From assembly GCF_010669225.1 (NCBI RefSeq), contig NZ_CP048627.1, positions 1,439,292 to 1,503,291 of the forward strand: DNA of 64,000 nt, given 5' to 3'. The translations under genes were made by a program, and so were the position numbers. The DNA comes from Megamonas funiformis (lineage in GTDB: Bacteria; Bacillota; Negativicutes; Selenomonadales; Selenomonadaceae). Below are positions 5,406-51,093 of the stretch, piece by piece. Position 1 is the stretch's first letter, and every line of letters starts with the position of its first letter. Under the pieces are notes generated by a model. That model saw only the letters and a list, made by a program, of their open reading frames with translations. It did not search any database and was not told the origin of the DNA.

Positions 5406-5553
5406 AATGGTACCTCTCATATATTTTCAAAATAACAAAAAGTCAAATCTCTAATAACAAAAGCTCTATAAAGCCTTATAAAATAAGTATAAAAAATAGT
5501 CAAAAAGTCAAAAATAATTGTTGACATTTTGACTAATTCGAGTATAATAATAA
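5406..5553 (+). repeat. attL: 148-bp prophage boundary repeat
   Basis: Matches 50946-51093 over 148 bp with differences only at 5491/51031 and 5520/51060. The flanks diverge sharply on both sides. The repeat contains TTGACA and TATAAT (16-bp spacer) reading rightwards, plus GTCAA-type boxes. At this end the promoter points into the prophage's gene-free left margin and meets the terminator at 5851. 5262-5405, the host flank between the reductase start and attL, shows no gene. Confidence 0.92.
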
Positions 5554-7684: not shown

Positions 7685-8734
7685 TTGAATAATAAAAGAT
7701 TAAAATTACCTAATGGTTTTGGTAGTATTACCAAAAAAAGTGGTCGACGTAGACGTCCCTATGAAATAAGAAAATTCATTGATGGACGTCAAAAAGTTAT
7801 AGGTTATGAAACAACCTATGAAAGTGCGTTAGCTTTTTTATGTGAATATAATAAAAATCCCTTACTTTTTTCTCCATCTGAAATTACTTTTGATGAACTA
7901 TTCTGCTTGGTAAAAGCTTATTTATATCCACGTATTAAAGAACGTACACAATCTAGCTATAATTGTGCATATAAACATCTAAATCGTTTATATGATAAAC
8001 AGTTTGCTAAAATTCGTATTGGTGATTTACAATCTGCAATACGTGATATACATGATAATGGTGCTGGATATAGTACACAAAAGAAAGCTAGACAAGTTCT
8101 ACATCACATGTATACCTACGCAGTGAAGTATGAGATAATTCCACCAGAAAAAGATATTAGTCGGTATATTGATATAGACAAAGATAAAAAAGTCTATAAA
8201 AAAACCATATTCAATACCCGACAGATTTATAAACTTTTCCGAGCCACCGATGAACACCGATATGCCAAAATGATACTAATGCACATGATGTTAGGTACTC
8301 GTCCTAGTGAATTTTTAGCAATAGAAAAAACTGATGTAAAGCTTAGACAACGTTACCTAATAATAAGAGAAAGTAAGACAGAAGCTGGCAGAAATAGAAT
8401 TATTCCATTGCATAAACAAACATTACCTTTTTGGATAGAATTTTTAGCAGAAAACAATAAATATATTGCTACAGATAATAACGGCATACATCTCAATTAT
8501 AGCCGTTTTCGTACTCGCTTCGATAAAACCCTTATAGAGTTAAAAATAAAGCGCCATACACCACATGAATGCAGACACACACTTGCGAGCTTATTAAATA
8601 ACGCAGACGCTAATCCAACCGCAATAAAAAGAATACTAGGACACGCCAGCAGTAATATAACAGAAAAACACTATACACATAAGGACCTGCACCAACTAAA
8701 AAAAGCAATGGATTTAATAGTGTTTAAATATTAA
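7685..8734 (+). CDS. Second tyrosine recombinase, candidate tail-fibre cassette invertase
   Basis: 349 residues from a TTG start 8 nt after GGAGTG. An N-terminal arm-binding region (GFGSITKKSGRRRRPYEIR) is followed by a SAM-like domain and a full catalytic set: Arg206 (LGTRPSE), Lys231, His294-x-x-Arg297 (PHECRHT), His320 (ILGHAS) and Tyr330 (EKHYTH). It is distinct from the attR-side integrase. It stands alone on the plus strand inside the minus-strand late operon, 0.8 kb from the array of alternative fibre tips. That position matches Rci-like shufflon recombinases, so I infer it inverts those cassettes; an integrase left by a nested element is the alternative. Confidence 0.85.
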   Translation: MNNKRLKLPNGFGSITKKSGRRRRPYEIRKFIDGRQKVIGYETTYESALAFLCEYNKNPLLFSPSEITFDELFCLVKAYLYPRIKERTQSSYNCAYKHLNRLYDKQFAKIRIGDLQSAIRDIHDNGAGYSTQKKARQVLHHMYTYAVKYEIIPPEKDISRYIDIDKDKKVYKKTIFNTRQIYKLFRATDEHRYAKMILMHMMLGTRPSEFLAIEKTDVKLRQRYLIIRESKTEAGRNRIIPLHKQTLPFWIEFLAENNKYIATDNNGIHLNYSRFRTRFDKTLIELKIKRHTPHECRHTLASLLNNADANPTAIKRILGHASSNITEKHYTHKDLHQLKKAMDLIVFKY

Positions 8735-8889: not shown

Positions 8890-9018
8890 TGCTTTTTCTG
8901 CTAACTCTTTCTTTTCTGTTTCTATAAGTTCTTTTCGTTTGTAATCTGGACACTTTGAATTAGTACAAAAGCCTTCTGTATCAAGTTTTCTTCCGCAAAA
9001 TGTACAAAATTTAAGCAT
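8854..9018 (-). CDS. 54-aa zinc-ribbon protein
   Basis: Short gene with a clear zinc-ribbon: CTFCGRKLDTEGFCTNSKC (residues 5-23), then a lysine/glutamate-rich helix. Its ATG overlaps the end of the upstream gene by 8 bp, and GGAGG lies about 9 nt before it, so translation is coupled to the fibre chaperone gene. Function unknown. Its place beside the fibre cassettes may mean a role in fibre assembly or its control, but that is inference only. Confidence 0.7.
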   Translation of the reverse strand: MLKFCTFCGRKLDTEGFCTNSKCPDYKRKELIETEKKELAEKAKSTQEASKNKA

Positions 9019-9421
9019 TTGTCAATTCCTCCAATTTTTTTGCATATTCATCTAATATATTTTGTCGTTCCTGCTGTAGTTCAGTAACATACTCAGTATC
9101 GCCGTTATTTTTTGCAATCTGAATTGCTTCATCAATCGCTTTAACGTTGGCTTCATACTCCGATTTAAGCACATTTGCTCTCTCCTCTAATGTAATTACC
9201 CTAGCAGGCGCAGAAATCGGCTTACCGGTCTCGCTGTCGCGAATATATCCAGTGCCGTTGTCGCCGTCACCCATATTGCCGGTGTAATAGTTCCAATCTT
9301 CATCGGATATTTCAATATAGCCTTCGGATTTCAACTTTTCTTCGCCGCCCCAGTCGTTAGCTAATGCCTGCGGAACGGCGGCAATCTTTTGGCCCTCTTC
9401 ATCAAATTTCATTAAATACAT
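9011..9421 (-). CDS. Probable tail-fibre assembly chaperone
   Basis: 136 residues from the ATG at 9421, chosen because AAAGG precedes it by about 9 nt; an ATG at 9451 lacks a ribosome site. Features: MYLMKFDEEGQ opening, a WNYYTGN segment, YIRDSETGKPI, then a long charged helix (residues about 75-136). This N-terminal fold plus coiled-coil tail is the layout of tail-fibre assembly proteins. Unusually it is separated from its fibre gene by the silent cassette array, which suggests one constant chaperone serves all the tips. Family assignment is by layout and position, not a strong motif. Confidence 0.65.
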   Translation of the reverse strand: MYLMKFDEEGQKIAAVPQALANDWGGEEKLKSEGYIEISDEDWNYYTGNMGDGDNGTGYIRDSETGKPISAPARVITLEERANVLKSEYEANVKAIDEAIQIAKNNGDTEYVTELQQERQNILDEYAKKLEELTNA

Positions 9422-9499
9422 AAAATCAGCCTTTCTTCTATAAATCTTCATTTTTTACATCAGATATATTTATAAACTCATTTTTTCAACTCCTTTAAA

Positions 9500-9724
9500 C
9501 AATGGGGAAGTGCCAATGGAACAGATGGTTCTAACCCTCCGTGGTATAACTTCCCTATTTCTTTTCCTGATATATGTTATCAAGTAGTTACAAACCGCAA
9601 AGATAATGGTTGGGGAGCGGTAGATGGAAACTCAGCTGGAGCTTGTGATTGGAATAAAACTCAAGTTAGAATATATTCCAATGATGGCACTGTTCCAGTA
9701 AATTATATTGCAATAGGTAAATAA
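9500..9724 (+). other. Silent tail-fibre tip cassette 1 (plus orientation)
   Basis: Open frame of 74 codons from the shared box (CAA TGG GGA) to TAA with no start codon or ribosome site of its own. It encodes QWGSANGTDGSNPPWYNF, then PISF, and ends YIAIGK, the same skeleton as the expressed fibre tip (QWG, LPISF, YIALGI). It points opposite to the fibre gene, so it can be joined in frame only after inversion between 9500 and 10559. It lies tail-to-tail with cassette 2, 14 bp apart. Confidence 0.85.
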
Positions 9725-9738
9725 AATAATATTTTATA

Positions 9739-9930
9739 TTAAATACCTAACGCTAACCATAAACCATCATTATTAGTACCACAAAGAATTTGGAAACTTT
9801 TTACACTTAAACTATATACTCTATCTGAACCTTGTCCACCTCCAATAGGAGTTACTATACAACAAAAAGCTTGCTTGGTAAAAGCTATAGGAAAAGTTAC
9901 AAACTGAGTATCATGTCCTTTTCCCCATTG
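9739..9930 (-). other. Silent tail-fibre tip cassette 2 (minus orientation)
   Basis: 63 codons plus stop starting at the shared box (9930). No start codon. Encodes QWGKGHDTQFVTF, PIAF, and ends GLWLALGI. Same orientation as the fibre gene, so it would first have to be flipped with a neighbour and then brought in by a second inversion. The central 40 residues have no obvious similarity to the other tips. Confidence 0.85.
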
Positions 9931-10122
9931 TTACTTGCCTATAGCAATGTAATGAGTAATACATGAGTGCCGTTTTTGAGCGTTAAAATAATTTAAATTG
10001 CTGACATTGTTTATGGTATTATCATTATTATCGAAACTATAACTTCCACATACAGCGATTTTGTAAAAAGAAGTAAATGTTACAGGAAAATAATTTTTTC
10101 CGTTGTTCCATTCTCCCCATTG
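9931..10122 (-). other. Silent tail-fibre tip cassette 3 (minus orientation)
   Basis: 63 codons plus stop starting at the shared box (10122); the TAA at 9933-9931 directly abuts the box of cassette 2. Encodes QWGEWNNGKNYF, PVTF, and ends HYIAIGK. No start codon or ribosome site. It is a single-orientation segment, like segment D of the R64 shufflon, and lies head-to-head with cassette 4 (13 bp between boxes). Confidence 0.85.
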
Positions 10123-10135
10123 TCAATTATGTGAA

Positions 10136-10361
10136 CAATGGAGGATTTAATCAGATTATTTACAGAAATATTACTAAAATAACCTTGCCAATAACTTTTG
10201 TTAATCCGTTTATAGCATTAGCAACTCCTTACAATGATGATAAAGATGTATCAGGAAATTATCTAGCAGGCTTTGCTATTAGAAATTTAACAAATACAGA
10301 TTTTAAGATAAATCAGGCTGATGTTGGATTATATGCTAGTTGGATAGCTATAGGATATTAA
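10136..10361 (+). other. Silent tail-fibre tip cassette 4, frameshifted at its box
   Basis: Encodes GFNQIIYRNITKITLP, ITF, and ends WIAIGY. Its box reads ACAATGGAGGA, one base longer than the ACAATGGGGA of the others. In the fibre frame it would give Gln-Trp-Arg-Ile-stop; removing that A restores QWGFNQ, which closely resembles the expressed QWGFDN. It lies tail-to-tail with the expressed tip, the two stop codons overlapping at 10358-10361. Probably an inactive cassette, or one switched by slippage. Confidence 0.8.
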
Positions 10362-11905
10362 ATACCCAATGCTATATAACATACAGAGACTCCATATAGA
10401 TATGAAAAACTATTTAAAGCTTTAGTATTTATATGGTAACCACAATTAGCACTTTCATCAGTATTAATACCAGAAGCTACTATGATTGAAAAATTATTAA
10501 AACTTATTGGCAATGTAATTGTTCGTCTATTAATATGACGATTATCAAATCCCCATTGTAGAATTAGACCATTACTAAATTTAACCCAACCATTTTGTGT
10601 TAAACTACCACCAACAATACCACCGAGTGTGCCGTCCGTTTTAAATTGATTAATGAGGTTTCGGACAAATGCGGTCGTAGCGATTTTAGTGCTGTTATCC
10701 GAAGTGCCTTGCGTCGGTGCGGTTGGGCTTCCTGTAAGTGCGGGGCTTGCTTTTGGTGCTAAGGTTGATAAATCAATACTGCACTGCGACAATGTGCCAC
10801 CATTCATGTAAATCGGTCTATTGGCATTGCCGACAGTGCTTCCACTTGCTACCGGTGAACCTGCATTTAAATAAATAGGTTTTACGCCACTACCCACGGT
10901 TCCCGTTCCCAATTTGCTTGCTGTAGTGGCGTTGGAGATTGTTCCGCCCGTATGTGCCAAAGTCCTCCACGCACTCCATTTATCAATACTACTGTCTCTG
11001 GCATTTCTATAATACATATTAGCAGGCGTAGCATCACCGCCGCTCCATTCCGTCACAATTTGTATTGCGCCAGCTCCTCTAATAGATAGACAATTACCAT
11101 AAGCACACGGGAAACCATTATTATAAACTTTACTCCATGTCATGCCAACAGGTAATGCGCTGGCAAGTGTATTTCCTGTTATGGCTTTTTCCGTAACTAT
11201 ATTTGCATTTGTAGCATTAGCAACGTTATTTACAGTTACACTGCTTGTACTTCCATTTCCTTTTGTAACTGTTAATGTTGCATTGCTTCCCGTAACCCCT
11301 TTTACATATGTTGTATCTATCTGTTGCCCACGGCTGTCCTGCGTGGCTTTGGTGGCACTTGCCGCGCTGGACGCAGAAGGAACTGCTTTCCATGTTCCAT
11401 CTCCCGCTAAAAAGTGGCTTGCATTGCCATCTCTTTTCGGTGCAAGTCCGTTTGCACTAGTAGATACAACAGCGGTACTTGCTTTGCCATTCCATGTATT
11501 TTTTTCAGTATCCGTTACAAATCTATGCGTCGCGTCCTGAGTAATCATGGTGGCAGGATGCGAACTAGGGTGTATATAATTGTTTGCTCCTGTTGCTATG
11601 CCGTCCAGCTTTTTCTTCAACTCCGGTGTCATGTAGCCCTTTAAACTGTCCGTAACTACTCGCCAGTCCTGTTCATTTACCACGTTTTGCAGGGTATCAT
11701 GCCACTGCTTAAGCAGTTTTTCATTGGATAGGAGCGCACTAAGGATTAAGTTCATGCCGGTGTACAACACTTTATCTTTTGCGATAATCTGTGGAATTTC
11801 TAAAAACCAGTCATGACCGTTTTCTAATGCTCCAGGGCGTTTATAACCGTCTATTTCTGTCGGGAACTCGAGCCCGAACTCTGTTTTTAATTCTTCAGCG
11901 TTCAA
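10358..11905 (-). CDS. Tail fibre protein with switchable C-terminal tip
   Basis: 515 residues from a TTG start after GAGGTGAT. The N-terminal part attaches to the baseplate. Mid-region fibre repeats include THRFVTDTEKNTWNGKA and SPALTGSPTAPT, then TKIATTAFVRNLI. The C-terminal domain resembles gp53-like fibre tips (NGWVKFSNGLILQWG, then ITLPISF, ending YIALGI). The crossover box falls at residues 450-452, so only the last 66 residues vary. The constant part ends exactly where four silent alternatives begin. Receptor binding at the cell surface is expected for the tip. Confidence 0.9.
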   Translation of the reverse strand: MNAEELKTEFGLEFPTEIDGYKRPGALENGHDWFLEIPQIIAKDKVLYTGMNLILSALLSNEKLLKQWHDTLQNVVNEQDWRVVTDSLKGYMTPELKKKLDGIATGANNYIHPSSHPATMITQDATHRFVTDTEKNTWNGKASTAVVSTSANGLAPKRDGNASHFLAGDGTWKAVPSASSAASATKATQDSRGQQIDTTYVKGVTGSNATLTVTKGNGSTSSVTVNNVANATNANIVTEKAITGNTLASALPVGMTWSKVYNNGFPCAYGNCLSIRGAGAIQIVTEWSGGDATPANMYYRNARDSSIDKWSAWRTLAHTGGTISNATTASKLGTGTVGSGVKPIYLNAGSPVASGSTVGNANRPIYMNGGTLSQCSIDLSTLAPKASPALTGSPTAPTQGTSDNSTKIATTAFVRNLINQFKTDGTLGGIVGGSLTQNGWVKFSNGLILQWGFDNRHINRRTITLPISFNNFSIIVASGINTDESANCGYHINTKALNSFSYLYGVSVCYIALGI

Positions 11906-45565: not shown

Positions 45566-46192
45566 ATGGAATTTAAAGATATATTAAAAAGTTTACGAAC
45601 TGAAAAAGGCTTGTCTCAAACTGATTTGGCTAAAATAACAGGATTAACACGTAGTGCTATTGGAATGTATGAAGTGGGTAAACGTGAACCTAATTTTGAA
45701 ACACTAGAAATATTAGCAGATTTTTTTAATGTGGATATGAATACACTATTAGGAAAAAATTCTATAACAAATAAATTAGCTCCTAATGTACACGGACTAT
45801 ATTCTATAAATACGCGAAAGATACCACTACTAGGTAAAATAGCCTGCGGTAAACCTATAATGACTGAAGAATGTTTTGAAGGATATGTACAAGCTGGAAC
45901 AAATATACGAGTAGATTTTTGTTTAGTAGCTAAAGGTGATAGTATGATAAATGCACGTATTTATGATGGTGACATTGTTTTCATCAGACAACAACCAGAA
46001 GTAGAAAATGGAGAAATAGCAGCCATTTTAATTGATGGTGGTGTTACTTTAAAACGTGTATACTATTATGATACAAGTATTGAACTTAGAGCAGAAAATC
46101 CAAAGTATCGTCCAATGATATTTAAAAAAGATGAATACCACCAATTTAAAATATTAGGGAAGGCGATTGCTTTTCAAGCAGATATTGTTTAA
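45566..46192 (+). CDS. CI-like phage repressor with S24 peptidase domain
   Basis: 208 residues. XRE helix-turn-helix (about 8-60: GLSQTDLAKITGLTRSAIGM), then an S24/LexA-type self-cleaving domain: scissile Cys94-Gly95 (KIACGKP), Ser126 (KGDSM), Lys163 (TLKRV). DNA damage would trigger RecA-stimulated self-cleavage and induction. Faces the Cro-like gene across three operators, so this is the primary lysogeny repressor. Confidence 0.9.
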   Translation: MEFKDILKSLRTEKGLSQTDLAKITGLTRSAIGMYEVGKREPNFETLEILADFFNVDMNTLLGKNSITNKLAPNVHGLYSINTRKIPLLGKIACGKPIMTEECFEGYVQAGTNIRVDFCLVAKGDSMINARIYDGDIVFIRQQPEVENGEIAAILIDGGVTLKRVYYYDTSIELRAENPKYRPMIFKKDEYHQFKILGKAIAFQADIV

Positions 46193-46211
46193 ATTTTGAG
46201 GTGTTTAAGAT

Positions 46212-46823
46212 ATGCCGACTATAGGCGAAAATATAAAAAAAGCTCGCAAGCAAGCAAATTTGACACAAATGGAACTAGCAAAAATTACAAATCTATCTCG
46301 TTCGTATATTGGAGATATTGAAAAAGATAGATATAATCCTAGCCTTTCTACCTTAAAAGCTATTGCTAAAGCTACAAATCAACCACTAAATTTTTTTATA
46401 TCTAATCAGTCTAATACACCGGCTAAAGGTATCAAAATTCCTGTATTAGGTCGTGTTGTTGCAGGCATCCCTGTTGAAGCTATCACTGACATAATAGATT
46501 ACGAAGAAATCACCGAAGAACTTGCTCGCACCGGAGATTTTTTTGCGCTGCAAGTAAAAGGCGAGAGCATGGCTCCCCGCATTCGAGAAAATGATGTCGT
46601 AATAGTCCGGAAACAGTCAACAGTAGAAAACAAAGAAGTCGCTATTGTTTTAGTAAACGGCAATGAAGCTACTATCAAAGAAGTTCAATTTCAGGAAAAC
46701 GGTATTACTTTGATAGGCTGGAATCCAGCAGTATATACACCTCATTTTTATAGTGCCAAAGACATCGAAACGTTGCCTGTTCAGATTATAGGCAAAGTTA
46801 TTGAACTTCGTGGGAAATTCTAA
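46212..46823 (+). CDS. Second S24-type repressor in tandem
   Basis: 203 residues with its own XRE domain (LTQMELAKITNLSRSYIGDI) and S24 domain: scissile Ala84-Gly85 (RVVAGIP), Ser119 (KGESM), Lys156 (ATIKEV). All catalytic positions are present. Begins 19 bp after the first repressor behind GAGGTG. The recognition helix differs from the first, so it should bind other operators. Its 3' half is visibly GC-richer than its 5' half, suggesting a recombinant gene. Sequential tandem CI-type repressors are uncommon. Confidence 0.88.
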   Translation: MPTIGENIKKARKQANLTQMELAKITNLSRSYIGDIEKDRYNPSLSTLKAIAKATNQPLNFFISNQSNTPAKGIKIPVLGRVVAGIPVEAITDIIDYEEITEELARTGDFFALQVKGESMAPRIRENDVVIVRKQSTVENKEVAIVLVNGNEATIKEVQFQENGITLIGWNPAVYTPHFYSAKDIETLPVQIIGKVIELRGKF

Positions 46824-46834
46824 GGAGATACCAA

Positions 46835-47767
46835 ATGGATGCAAATCAGAAATTAACAAATACGCTGTATTTTAATACTTTATCTGATACGTTAACTAAT
46901 ATAAATGACCTTTTAAATTACGGCAAAAAACTCTTAAATGATGTTGTTTCATCTTCAAAAATAACAAAAGAAGCTGACAAAGTTTTAATATTATGGCTCC
47001 GAGATGTTGTAGAATTGATACATGGTTTATTATGTCTTTACCAAGGTCAATCTTTTAATAATTGTAAGGTTTTAGTTAGGTCTTTATTTGAACATTATTT
47101 GAATTTTAAATATGTTTTTAAAGACGATAAAAATATAGATATAAAATTACGCTCATATAGATACTTTCAATTAATGATAATTTTAAATGATTATAATAAT
47201 ATGTTAAGAAATCCTGTATATCCATCTAAGAATTTTAATTTAACCACCATGAAAAGAGATTATCCATTATATGAAGCAGATATGAAGCAAATTAAACAGG
47301 AAATCACTTCGGAACTATATTCAGATTTATATAACGATGTTACAAAGAACTTCAAATATCAACCTAACAAAGCATACAGACAATTATTTGATAAAAATCC
47401 TATTCAGTGGTATACATTAACCAATCCAAGTATTAAATCTATATCAAGATTGGCTAATTATCTTGATGAAAAAGATTTATATATTGTTTTTTATAAATCA
47501 TATTCAAAAATTATTCATGCAGGGAACGCCTTAAACGGTTTAATGTTGAATGCAAATAGTATAAAGTTAAAAAATTTTAATCAGCCGGAAGAAATGATGA
47601 CATCTCTTTGCTTTATGATAGCGTTAATAACTAAAATTTATAGTTTATATATGAAATATTTTTCACTAGTAGATAAAAATTATAGCGATAAATATTCTAC
47701 TATAAATGAAGATTTAAGTAATATTTTGACTCGTTGGAATATGATAGAACAAATTATGACTAGTTAA
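46835..47767 (+). CDS. DUF5677-like protein, lysogenic cargo
   Basis: 310 residues, helical. LRDVVELIHGLLCLYQGQSF, then VLVRSLFEHYLNFKYVFKDD and SKIIHAGNALNG fit DUF5677-type proteins, which occur in mobile elements and near defence genes. No catalytic mechanism is known. Very AT-rich; starts 12 bp after the second repressor with AAGGAG, so it is expressed in the lysogen. Confidence 0.65.
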   Translation: MDANQKLTNTLYFNTLSDTLTNINDLLNYGKKLLNDVVSSSKITKEADKVLILWLRDVVELIHGLLCLYQGQSFNNCKVLVRSLFEHYLNFKYVFKDDKNIDIKLRSYRYFQLMIILNDYNNMLRNPVYPSKNFNLTTMKRDYPLYEADMKQIKQEITSELYSDLYNDVTKNFKYQPNKAYRQLFDKNPIQWYTLTNPSIKSISRLANYLDEKDLYIVFYKSYSKIIHAGNALNGLMLNANSIKLKNFNQPEEMMTSLCFMIALITKIYSLYMKYFSLVDKNYSDKYSTINEDLSNILTRWNMIEQIMTS

Positions 47768-47776
47768 TAACACAAT

Positions 47777-47797
47777 AGCCACGATAGTATCGTGGCT
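47777..47797. terminator. Perfect hairpin after the DUF5677-like gene
   Basis: AGCCACGATA-G-TATCGTGGCT, 10-bp arms about one base, 10 bp after the stop. There is no clear T-run, so it may be a terminator of moderate strength or a regulatory palindrome for the following genes. Confidence 0.5.
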
Positions 47798-47810
47798 CAA
47801 AATCTACACC

Positions 47811-47975
47811 ATGAGCATAAACTCCGACAAAATCGAACATATAGCCAATACCTTCGCCGTAGAGTTATTATTGCCCGATACATATTTAAAAGAAAACGCT
47901 GATACCAGTATCTACGATTTAGCTAGAATAAAAGGTATTCCAGCGAAGTTTATAAACTTGAAACTGAAAAATTAA
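47811..47975 (+). pseudogene. ImmA/IrrE-type metalloprotease remnant
   Basis: 54 codons reading IEHIANTFAVELLLPDTYLK and YDLARIKGIPAKFINLKL, the C-terminal part of ImmA/IrrE proteases that cleave phage repressors. The HExxH active site is absent and there is no ribosome site before the ATG. GC content is higher than in the flanking genes. I read it as the end of a former protease gene left after cargo replacement. Confidence 0.6.
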
Positions 47976-47994
47976 CTATATTAGGAGTGATAGC

Positions 47995-48801
47995 GTGGAA
48001 AAATATACAGCTGGATTTTCAGGGACCTTAACTTTAAAGGAATATCCAAGCGAACAAAGTGCCAATGCTTTATTTACATGCATGCGAGATATTCGTTTTT
48101 TAAAAGATATATTAAAGCGAAAGAAAATATATCCTCGATATTATAAAGAAGACATTGAATACTTACATTTGCCTGGTCTTTCAGGAATAGCATATCCTAT
48201 GAAATGTTTTTGCGATATATTTTTAAATAAATTAGAAAAACATATGGATAAATATGGTGAATACGGCATTGCCTTAACAAAAGAATGGGGATTAACTAAT
48301 AAAATCCAGCCGATACAATATATAAATGAAAATTCTTTTTTGTATACGAGCATACAAAAATTATATGAAAATAGACATGACCCTAACAATAAACTTGATT
48401 ATCAAGATTTATTCCATAATATTTTAGGATTTATAAAACCTATATCCGGTAAAATGCCCAAAGATGATGGTGTTGTTACTAAAAATTTTCATGATGAAAA
48501 AGAATGGCGTTATATTCCAGAAATTAGTCCTAGAGCAAGAAATTACTTTCCTTTTATTGAAGAGTCATATATTATAGATAATAGTACATTCCTTAATCAA
48601 AAATCAAACGAATTTTTCATTAAAGACAAATACGGTTTAAAAATAACAGATAAGGATATTAAATATATAATAATTTCTAAAGAGGAAGAGCGCGAACCTT
48701 TTATTGATTTTATCTTAAAAGAATGTCGTTTTAGTCGAAAGGAAAAATATAATCTAATTTCTAAGTTGATTATATTTAATGAAATGAAAGGAGATTGGTA
48801 A
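47995..48801 (+). CDS. AbiGi-like abortive-infection protein
   Basis: 268 residues. The segment YPMKCFCDIFLNKLEKHMDK followed by YGEYGIALTKEWGLTNKIQP, and the later FHDEKEWRYIPEISP, match the AbiGi family (the antitoxin half of the AbiG abortive-infection system known from Lactococcus). GTG start after TTAGGAGTGAT. One base separates it from the next gene, a typical two-gene defence operon. Defence cargo on a prophage would exclude competing phages. Confidence 0.72.
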   Translation: MEKYTAGFSGTLTLKEYPSEQSANALFTCMRDIRFLKDILKRKKIYPRYYKEDIEYLHLPGLSGIAYPMKCFCDIFLNKLEKHMDKYGEYGIALTKEWGLTNKIQPIQYINENSFLYTSIQKLYENRHDPNNKLDYQDLFHNILGFIKPISGKMPKDDGVVTKNFHDEKEWRYIPEISPRARNYFPFIEESYIIDNSTFLNQKSNEFFIKDKYGLKITDKDIKYIIISKEEEREPFIDFILKECRFSRKEKYNLISKLIIFNEMKGDW

Positions 48802-48802
48802 T

Positions 48803-49672
48803 ATGTTGCCGACTGCGGTTAAAATAAAAGATTTACCTAATACTCTAAATGAAATACCTAATAATGTTTATTTATCTAAAGAAAACCACAAAAAAATACA
48901 TGGTCGCTTAAAAAAAACAGGAAACACTTTTGAAATTTCTATAGATGATGCTTTTAGTTTTAAGTTTAACTTAAAATCTAAAAATAATATAGATTATACA
49001 TTTTCTATTCATCCAGAAAAAATGGATAATATTTCCGATGTTATTCATGTTTTAAAACTAGCTAAAGGTTTGTCTTCGGGATCTATATTTATAAATGATA
49101 TAAAACTTGTAGATTTCAAAATAAATCCTATAAAGAAAAAAGATATAGAAACACTTTCTATGTTAATAAATTACTGGGAAAGAATGGAGCACATCGCAAA
49201 ACAACTAAAAAAATATAGCAATATTGTATTATCACCAAAAGATATAGTTGAAAATAGTGATAAAGATATATTTAACTTTGAGATACTAAATAGAAGCTTA
49301 GTTGATGAAAAGCCATACAAATTAAATAACCCATTAATAGACGGCTTTTCTTTAACAGTAAGTAATGCCATAGATGTTTCTAAAATAGAAGATAAGACTC
49401 CTTCTTTTACATTTTTAAGAAAAGAAACCTTATGTTTTGCAGGTAAAAAGTTTACAATATATATTACTACTGGCATTTTTAAAGTTATCATTTCAGAGAT
49501 AATCCCTATGCAAAAAAATAATGATGATACATCTACATATTATTTTAAAATAAGTTCCAAAAATAAAAAAATAGATGTATCTGAAAGAATTTTTTTAGAC
49601 GAACATCTTGCTCAAGATTACTTAAATAATGAACATACTATAGAAGAATTATCAAAAGCAACTATTTTATAG
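48803..49672 (+). CDS. Partner of the AbiGi-like protein, possible AbiGii-type toxin
   Basis: 289 residues, very AT-rich. Features: VKIKDLPNTLNEIPNNVYLS, a central part with FSIHPEKMDNISDVIHVLKL, and EHIAKQLKKYSNIVLSPKDI. I do not recognise a catalytic motif. Its position directly behind an AbiGi-like gene suggests the toxin (AbiGii) role, though it is shorter than the lactococcal protein as I recall it. Ribosome site GGAG 9 nt before ATG. A terminator follows. Confidence 0.55.
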   Translation: MLPTAVKIKDLPNTLNEIPNNVYLSKENHKKIHGRLKKTGNTFEISIDDAFSFKFNLKSKNNIDYTFSIHPEKMDNISDVIHVLKLAKGLSSGSIFINDIKLVDFKINPIKKKDIETLSMLINYWERMEHIAKQLKKYSNIVLSPKDIVENSDKDIFNFEILNRSLVDEKPYKLNNPLIDGFSLTVSNAIDVSKIEDKTPSFTFLRKETLCFAGKKFTIYITTGIFKVIISEIIPMQKNNDDTSTYYFKISSKNKKIDVSERIFLDEHLAQDYLNNEHTIEELSKATIL

Positions 49673-49746: not shown

Positions 49747-50931
49747 ATGGCTAGAATACATGAACGCCTTACAAAGACAAAAGGCAAAACATATTGGTTC
49801 ATTATAGATGTTGGTAGAGATGATACAGGAAAACGTATCCGTATCAAACGCTGTGGCTTTACTAAAAAAAGCGATGCTAAAAAAGCAATGGCAGAAATAG
49901 AGTCCCAATATTATGCGGGAAAGGTATTTGCTAAACCTAAAGATATAACATTTGCCTATTATGTTCAAGAAATTTGGTTTAAAGAATATCAACATTATAC
50001 TAAGATATCTACACAAAAGGGCATACAATATCTATTAAAAGCATTAATATCATTCTGGGGGCAAGATGTTAAATTAAAACATATTACCTCTCTAAATATT
50101 CAAGCATATATACAAAATATGCTTGATATGGGTAAAAAACGTAAAACTATTACAAAAAACTTATCCTATATAAAAATGATATTTAAACATGCTTTAAAAA
50201 ATAATATTATCACTAATAATCCTTGTGAAAATATTGATTTACCTAAAATGACTTTAGTCGAAAAAACTAAACTGCTACAACAAAAACCTAAACCATTATA
50301 TCTAGAAAAAGAAGATTTACTCACTTTCTTAAATGAAGCTAAAAATGATGCATATGCATATCCATATTATTATATGGTATTTTTTCTAATCTATACTGGT
50401 GCTAGATTAGGCGAGGTATGTGCTATGGAATGGGATAATTTTAATACAAAAAATAAGACTATAAAAATTACCCAAAACATCTATGGTTGCAGTCAAAAAA
50501 ATTATTATGTACAAACTCCAAAAACTAAAAATAGTATTAGAGAAATTTCTATTTCACAATCTTTTATAGATGTGATGAAAGAATGGCGATTAATACAAAA
50601 TAAACAAAAAATAAAAAATGCAAATAATTGGGATAGAACATATAATTTTATATTTACTTCTCGATATTATCCTGGAAAACCAATTTTAACCTGTAATCTA
50701 TATGGCTTCATAAAAAAGATAGCCAAAAAAATCGGGTTAAGTTGGATCCATCCACATACATTCCGCCATACCCACACATCATTATTAGCAGCGGCAGGTG
50801 AATCATTAGAAGTAATACAAGATCGGTTAGGGCATACCAATGACTCTACAACACGTCAAATTTATTTGCATATTACTAAAAGCAGAAAAGTAGATGCTGC
50901 TTCAAAATTTGATGCATATTTAAATTCATAA
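49747..50931 (+). CDS. int: Phage integrase (tyrosine recombinase)
   Basis: 394 residues. N-terminal arm-binding AP2-like domain (WFIIDVGRDDTGKRIRIKRC), SAM-like core-binding domain (about 65-165), catalytic domain with Arg220 (YTGARLGE), Lys259, His337-x-x-Arg340 (HTFRHTH), His363 (RLGHTN) and Tyr373 (RQIYLH). It lies 14 bp from attR, as expected for the enzyme that joins attP to the hsp20-upstream attB. GGGG ribosome site before ATG. Confidence 0.95.
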   Translation: MARIHERLTKTKGKTYWFIIDVGRDDTGKRIRIKRCGFTKKSDAKKAMAEIESQYYAGKVFAKPKDITFAYYVQEIWFKEYQHYTKISTQKGIQYLLKALISFWGQDVKLKHITSLNIQAYIQNMLDMGKKRKTITKNLSYIKMIFKHALKNNIITNNPCENIDLPKMTLVEKTKLLQQKPKPLYLEKEDLLTFLNEAKNDAYAYPYYYMVFFLIYTGARLGEVCAMEWDNFNTKNKTIKITQNIYGCSQKNYYVQTPKTKNSIREISISQSFIDVMKEWRLIQNKQKIKNANNWDRTYNFIFTSRYYPGKPILTCNLYGFIKKIAKKIGLSWIHPHTFRHTHTSLLAAAGESLEVIQDRLGHTNDSTTRQIYLHITKSRKVDAASKFDAYLNS

Positions 50932-50945
50932 AGAGATGGTACCAA

Positions 50946-51093
50946 AATGGTACCTCTCATATATTTTCAAAATAACAAAAAGTCAAATCTCTAATAACAA
51001 AAGCTCTATAAAGCCTTATAAAATAAGTAAAAAAAATAGTCAAAAAGTCAAAAATAATTATTGACATTTTGACTAATTCGAGTATAATAATAA
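50946..51093 (+). repeat. attR: 148-bp prophage boundary repeat
   Basis: Second copy of the boundary repeat (see 5406-5553), immediately after the integrase gene. It contains the promoter and GTCAA boxes of the downstream hsp20 operon, so the host operon remains driven after integration. ATGGTACC motifs overlap its left edge. Confidence 0.92.
51040..51088 (+). promoter_or_regulatory. hsp20 promoter with GTCAA-box inverted repeat
   Basis: TTGACA (51061-51066), 16-bp spacer, TATAAT (51083-51088). GTCAAAAAGTCAA (51040-51052) and TTGACATTTTGAC (51061-51073) form a 13-bp inverted repeat with one mismatch that swallows the -35. GTCAAA half-sites recall CtsR heptads but with 8-bp rather than 10-bp phasing, so the regulator is uncertain. 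Another pair TTTTGACTTTTTGAC lies at 51236-51250. Confidence 0.65.

Follow-up and report, generated by a model that had tools for sequence, protein, structure and literature searches.

Results

A tail fibre gene with alternative tips

The window, by which we mean the whole 64-kb stretch of DNA analysed, represents one arrangement of the array described here. It contains a separate phage integrase gene (49747-50931, + strand) encoding a tyrosine recombinase with an Arm-DNA-bind_4 domain. Directly after this gene is a probable attR (50946-51093), and the same sequence recurs as a direct repeat at 5406-5553 (probable attL), the two copies matching exactly, and in register, over blocks of 84, 29 and 33 bp. 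Because the integrase lies beside this repeat, we place a prophage with its own integrase at approximately 5.4-51.1 kb. We also noticed two neighbouring repressor genes (45566-46823) that combine an HTH with an S24 peptidase and, at the lysogeny end, DUF5677 and AbiGi-like genes (46835-49672) that could have a role in phage defence.

The expressed tail fibre gene (10358-11905, - strand) consists of a constant part (10560-11905) and a C-terminal tip, cassette A (10358-10558; 66 aa). Two silent tip cassettes, C (9931-10122; 63 aa, without a Pfam match) and D (9739-9930; 63 aa), are on the same strand as the fibre gene, and cassettes B (10136-10361) and E (9500-9724; silent, 74 aa) are on the opposite strand. 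Cassettes D and E match the Pfam domain Gp53-like_C from profile position 9 onward, and in the expressed fibre the match to this domain runs across the joint between constant part and tip. Together, these matches indicate that the joint cuts the domain about 8 residues from its start. A search of the PDB with the tip fold gave no significant match.

Each of these five alternative tips is headed by a short repeat, which we call the box. Across the 64-kb window, ACAATGGGGA is present in four exact copies, each inside 9499-10559: box E (9499-9508, + strand) at the outer end of the array, box D (9922-9931, - strand), whose first A doubles as the final base of the cassette C stop codon, box C (10114-10123, - strand), and box A (10550-10559, - strand) within the expressed fibre gene. 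Dinucleotide shuffles of the window gave an expected 0.08 copies, and none of 100 shuffles had at least 4, ruling out chance or low complexity as the source of the boxes. All four exact boxes open an in-frame cassette of 63-74 aa that starts with Gln-Trp-Gly. The fifth, box B (10135-10145, + strand), is degenerate. Its sequence, ACAATGGAGGA, retains ACAATGG and has one extra base that breaks the frame. Joining at box B would give Gln-Trp-Arg-Ile-stop, and cassette B itself is open in another frame. The extra base could reflect decay or an assembly error; as it stands, the cassette B tip would be truncated.

A first-pass annotation of this DNA had described about 10 bp common to all five junctions and always in the same codon phase. 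This is correct for the four exact boxes and not for the frameshifted box B. The annotation had also described Gln-Trp-Gly as a turn before each tip, and here the AlphaFold model disagrees: it places these residues (21-23) in a predicted strand (19-25).

On the outer side of the array is a gene for a tyrosine recombinase (7685-8734, + strand; 349 aa), with a TTG start codon after AGGAG. A small gene between the recombinase and the array (9011-9451, - strand) has no family match and is found at the same position in a related array (L038, below); it is possibly a tail fibre assembly gene. Thus, the locus has the organisation of a shufflon: a fibre gene with a constant N-terminal part and several alternative C-terminal cassettes, a short asymmetric repeat at the cassette starts and inside the constant gene, and an adjoining tyrosine recombinase that is distinct from the integrase.

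Related arrays in other phages

An element in IMG/VR (L038) encodes a recombinase that is 89% identical to that of the window and has eight boxes, all ACAGTGGGGA, with different tips. A second array in the same genome as the window (L040) has five ACAGTGGGGA boxes, and a draft assembly of the same strain (L076) has this second array in the same arrangement. We then searched with a pattern made only of DNA, two boxes head to head, using no protein information. This search yielded 15 array loci, of which three were rediscoveries (L038, L040 and L042) and 12 were new. Every array found by the search that had enough flanking sequence was adjoined by a recombinase matching the same profile (E 4e-69 or better). 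A recombinase of the same subfamily was next door at L071, L073, L078, L080, L082, L083, L122 and L149; at L075, L084, L085, L089 and L155 the flank is too short to show one. One of the arrays is in a metagenome-assembled genome of Anaerovibrio, which belongs to the same family as the window genome (Selenomonadaceae). The spacers between head-to-head boxes range from 0 to 14 bases, and we rejected the notion of a fixed spacing.

We pooled 112 sites from 19 loci, and 103 of these are canonical boxes. All but three of the canonical boxes (100/103) open an in-phase open reading frame of 58-97 aa. The window is the only pooled locus with CAA-type boxes, and all five of its boxes are of this type, which is what one would expect were an array to keep its boxes identical to each other. 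The weakest member of the pooled set is L046. Two of its boxes (L046:10092-10615) have a longer left flank in common (~23 bp) and its recombinase is split into two frames, so this array is possibly locked. In tandem cassettes (L038, L040, L078, L084 and L155; 15 distinct flanks), the stop codon that ends one cassette runs directly into the first A of the box that follows. Most of 90 matches to the box pattern in GTDB genomes were without an array or recombinase and probably arose by chance. The same probably applies to L109 and L148, unrelated genomes with three or four clustered ACARTGGGG words and no matching recombinase.

Left flank and cassette change over within the box

We compared sites that have the same cassette and different left flanks, and sites that have the same left flank and different cassettes. 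For the former (15 pairs), identity was 1.0 from base 1 of the box and 0.13 one base upstream. For the latter (17 pairs), identity was about 1.0 through base 10 and 0.35 after that; in both comparisons some of the sequences are related, and the pairs cannot be counted as independent. Across the 103 boxes, the switch from left flank to cassette lies within the ten bases. Joints change over exactly where the box begins or ends, and junctions at varying positions were not seen, in agreement with the fixed in-frame box that the first-pass annotation had proposed.

Variant boxes narrow the region further. ACAGTGGATA, ACAGTGGGTA and ACAGTGGGAA are boxes with changes after base 7, and ACAGTGGATA is found on one cassette with two different left flanks (L075 and L080). 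Since ACAGTGGATA was unchanged while the left flank changed, exchange appears to have occurred to the left of base 8. These limits would confine the exchange to seven bases, ACARTGG, the same length as the 7-bp core used by Rci at the sfx sites of R64 (PMC11852207).

We found little conservation outside of the box. Among 52 distinct left flanks and 85 distinct right flanks, the first and last A of the box are near-invariant. On the left there is a weak preference for T at position -3 (73% of left flanks), which was also found in 21 of 35 flanks (p = 0.005) when tandem-stop and expressed-joint flanks were excluded. On the right, C is missing at position +1, with a bias toward A/T. The signal at other flank positions is weak and on the right side follows codon periodicity. 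The right arm is also unconserved when arrays of 6 to 13 boxes are taken one at a time. The alignment of flanks that the first-pass annotation had suggested thus covered 103 boxes at 19 loci and bears out a short box with essentially unconserved flanks: only the weak T at -3 and the A/T bias at +1 were found outside of the ten bases. We also looked near the arrays for shared 9-mers. None besides those derived from the box was clearly above resampled controls, and on this basis we rejected an enhancer or arm-type site common to the loci.

The ten bases are constrained as DNA. The Gln codon is CAG in all five L040 boxes, and the genes there use CAA and CAG at 178:32. The Gly codon is GGA in 101 of 103 boxes, compared to 22% of Gly codons in the window genes. 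Codons that are fixed against local usage indicate that the DNA itself is constrained, and not Gln-Trp-Gly alone. In addition, the A before CAR is invariant in non-coding left flanks.

A similar word in a second reading frame

The genome has a third fibre array, in another prophage (L039:6696-9613; approximately 1176695-1179612 of contig C1). The recombinase there is 78% identical to that of L040, and the fibre is of another type, Gp10_C. The three joints at L039 share CTGTGGGAGAA, which is read Val-Gly-Glu rather than Gln-Trp-Gly. The joint word ACTGTGGG is one base apart from the box word ACAGTGGG, so nearly the same word is used in two frames of two folds, as judged from three sites at this one locus. 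A scan of IMG/VR gave no second example. One match to a GELP-type box there had no recombinase or array, and we took it to be chance.

The recombinase beside the array

The product of 7685-8734 matches Pfam Phage_integrase (2e-22). Its predicted structure is lambda integrase-like over its length (best Foldseek match full-length lambda Int, E 2e-9), with Z scores of 16-18 for the core-binding and catalytic parts. Three modelled strands and a helix (beta-beta-beta-alpha) precede the core-binding domain; the VIA alignments begin at residue 38. Going by its fold, this N-terminal domain may have an arm-binding role, and the recombinase is probably a three-domain enzyme. Pfam Arm-DNA-bind_4 matched weakly in 3 of 20 family members and did not match the window protein. 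The chain stops shortly after the YTHK motif and the catalytic tyrosine.

Recombinases linked to arrays, that of the window among them, fall in two well-supported clades, with phage integrases nearby in the tree, so we rejected a single clade for all arrays. Enzymes that are only about 35% identical adjoin arrays with nearly the same box. Integrases of Fusobacterium, Butyrivibrio and Ruminococcus phages belong to the same family and are 23-35% identical over most of their length; the neighbourhoods that we inspected are integrase-like loci and had no box array. The other family members in the Selenomonadaceae genomes examined were likewise without a box array. Since the family also includes ordinary phage integrases, family membership alone does not make an enzyme an invertase. 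There was no Resolvase-family match within the window. The three resolvase-family genes of the genome are all outside of it, and with none near the array we rejected a serine invertase as the driver.

Discussion

The sequences show the boxes with their cassettes, a defined switch point, linkage to a recombinase and, in assemblies, alternative joints. We propose that the array is a tail-fibre shufflon in which the recombinase encoded at 7685-8734 inverts the DNA between oppositely oriented boxes and thereby joins one alternative tip in frame to the constant part of the fibre gene. We put the probability of this reading at about 0.88. Seven bases is a usual overlap length for tyrosine recombinases, and strand exchange would take place inside the first seven bases of the box (ACAATGG in the window, ACAGTGG elsewhere). 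Of the arms, only the trailing GGA would be conserved. Since the box encodes Gln-Trp-Gly close to where the tip domain begins, a swap at any intact box would keep the frame. The enzyme that cuts the box is probably the lambda integrase-like protein encoded beside the array. Integration is served by a separate integrase and att repeats, which we count in favour of a shufflon worked by the adjacent recombinase. Inversion would be favoured over deletion, and the tip would set the choice of receptor.

Assemblies and comparisons between relatives provide the observations that bear on inversion at the repeats. A draft contig of the same strain (L059) is 100% identical to the window over 5.4 kb and ends exactly at 10550, on the final base of box A, beyond which the tips differ. 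An assembler breaks a contig where several alternative continuations follow, and the end of this contig indicates, as an assembly signal, that several tips may follow box A. In one relative (L043), two cassettes are each joined to a single outer flank, and one of the two has a further joint, to the fibre gene. These double joints, also an assembly signal, are indirect evidence of alternative arrangements. One cassette is repeated at L078, which could be a true duplication.

It is unlikely that the window array is a decayed shufflon, locked in its present arrangement. The extra base in box B is what decay would look like. The other four boxes are intact, however, and the recombinase frame is open. 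The one intact box on the + strand (E) can still pair with the three boxes on the - strand, and the same-strain contig stops at a box. We consider it less likely still that inversion is real and the work of another enzyme, either the prophage integrase (49747-50931) or a host recombinase acting in trans. The host does carry resolvase-family genes elsewhere, and a trans-acting invertase was proposed for a second bifidophage locus (PMC6109161). Against this, the integrase adjoins attR and has a different domain match, and the subfamily of the adjacent recombinase recurs beside relatives' arrays that were found by DNA alone. Lastly, Gln-Trp-Gly is at the conserved N-terminal edge of Gp53-like_C in these fibres, and the boxes could be a mere protein motif with tips swapped by homologous recombination over evolutionary time, which is highly improbable given the invariant A in non-coding flanks, the codons fixed against local usage, joints that change over inside ten bases with no homology on either side, and the recurrence at L039 of almost the same word in a different frame and fold.

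The proposed tail-fibre shufflon is closest in kind to the Rin shufflons, known from prophages of Bifidobacterium, with 11-bp repeats (TTCCCTAACCC; PMC6109161), and of Eggerthella lenta, with 8-bp repeats (PMC8778435). With repeats this short, a ten-base box is less unusual than the first-pass annotation had implied. As in the window, Rin is a phage tyrosine invertase, distinct from the integrase, beside alternative C-terminal receptor-binding cassettes, and there is a short asymmetric repeat at each junction, with one inside the constant gene. The systems differ in their hosts (here Selenomonadaceae and other Bacillota), in the box (here ACARTGGGGA) and in the fibre domain (here Gp53-like_C). 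The Bifidobacterium Rin was described as XerD-like in organisation, without an N-terminal arm-binding domain (PMC6109161). In contrast, the window enzyme has a modelled N-terminal beta-beta-beta-alpha domain. Judging from sequence and models, the hosts, the box, the fibre domain, the use of the box in two frames and a probably three-domain invertase would be new relative to Rin.

Two other systems are instructive. The sfx sites of R64 have a variable 12-bp left arm, a 7-bp core and a 12-bp right arm (PMC11852207). The window array would share multiple inversion with the Rci/sfx system, and resembles it in asymmetric sites, a 7-bp overlap, a variable left arm and alternative C-termini. It differs in the right arm, which is conserved over 12 bp in sfx, confirming the longer arms that had been noted for Rci sites (PMC11852207), and over approximately 3 bp here (GGA, then the weak A/T bias). 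Rci also has an extra C-terminal domain that the window enzyme is without. Gin, Cin and Min are serine recombinases that swap phage tail-fibre C-termini by inversion. The exchange of tips is similar; the enzymes are of a class with no member near the window array.

It is possible, and we offer this tentatively as a notion with the odds against it, that a lineage of invertases derived from lambda-type integrases reads a word of only ~7-10 bp without conserved arms, and that one genome uses nearly the same word, AC[A/T]GTGGG, in two reading frames and two fibre folds that are unrelated. Specificity or an inversion bias might then come from the retained N-terminal domain or from a partner protein.

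The minimal site of such an enzyme should be measurable, since the ten bases are almost all that about 100 natural sites have in common. The arrays open to test how a lambda Int-like enzyme acts when its sites have no arms, and why tandem cassettes with directly repeated boxes escape deletion. Tail-fibre shufflons can be found with the box as a plain DNA probe, and the arrays described here would extend tail-fibre shufflons driven by tyrosine recombinases to phages of Selenomonadaceae and other Bacillota.
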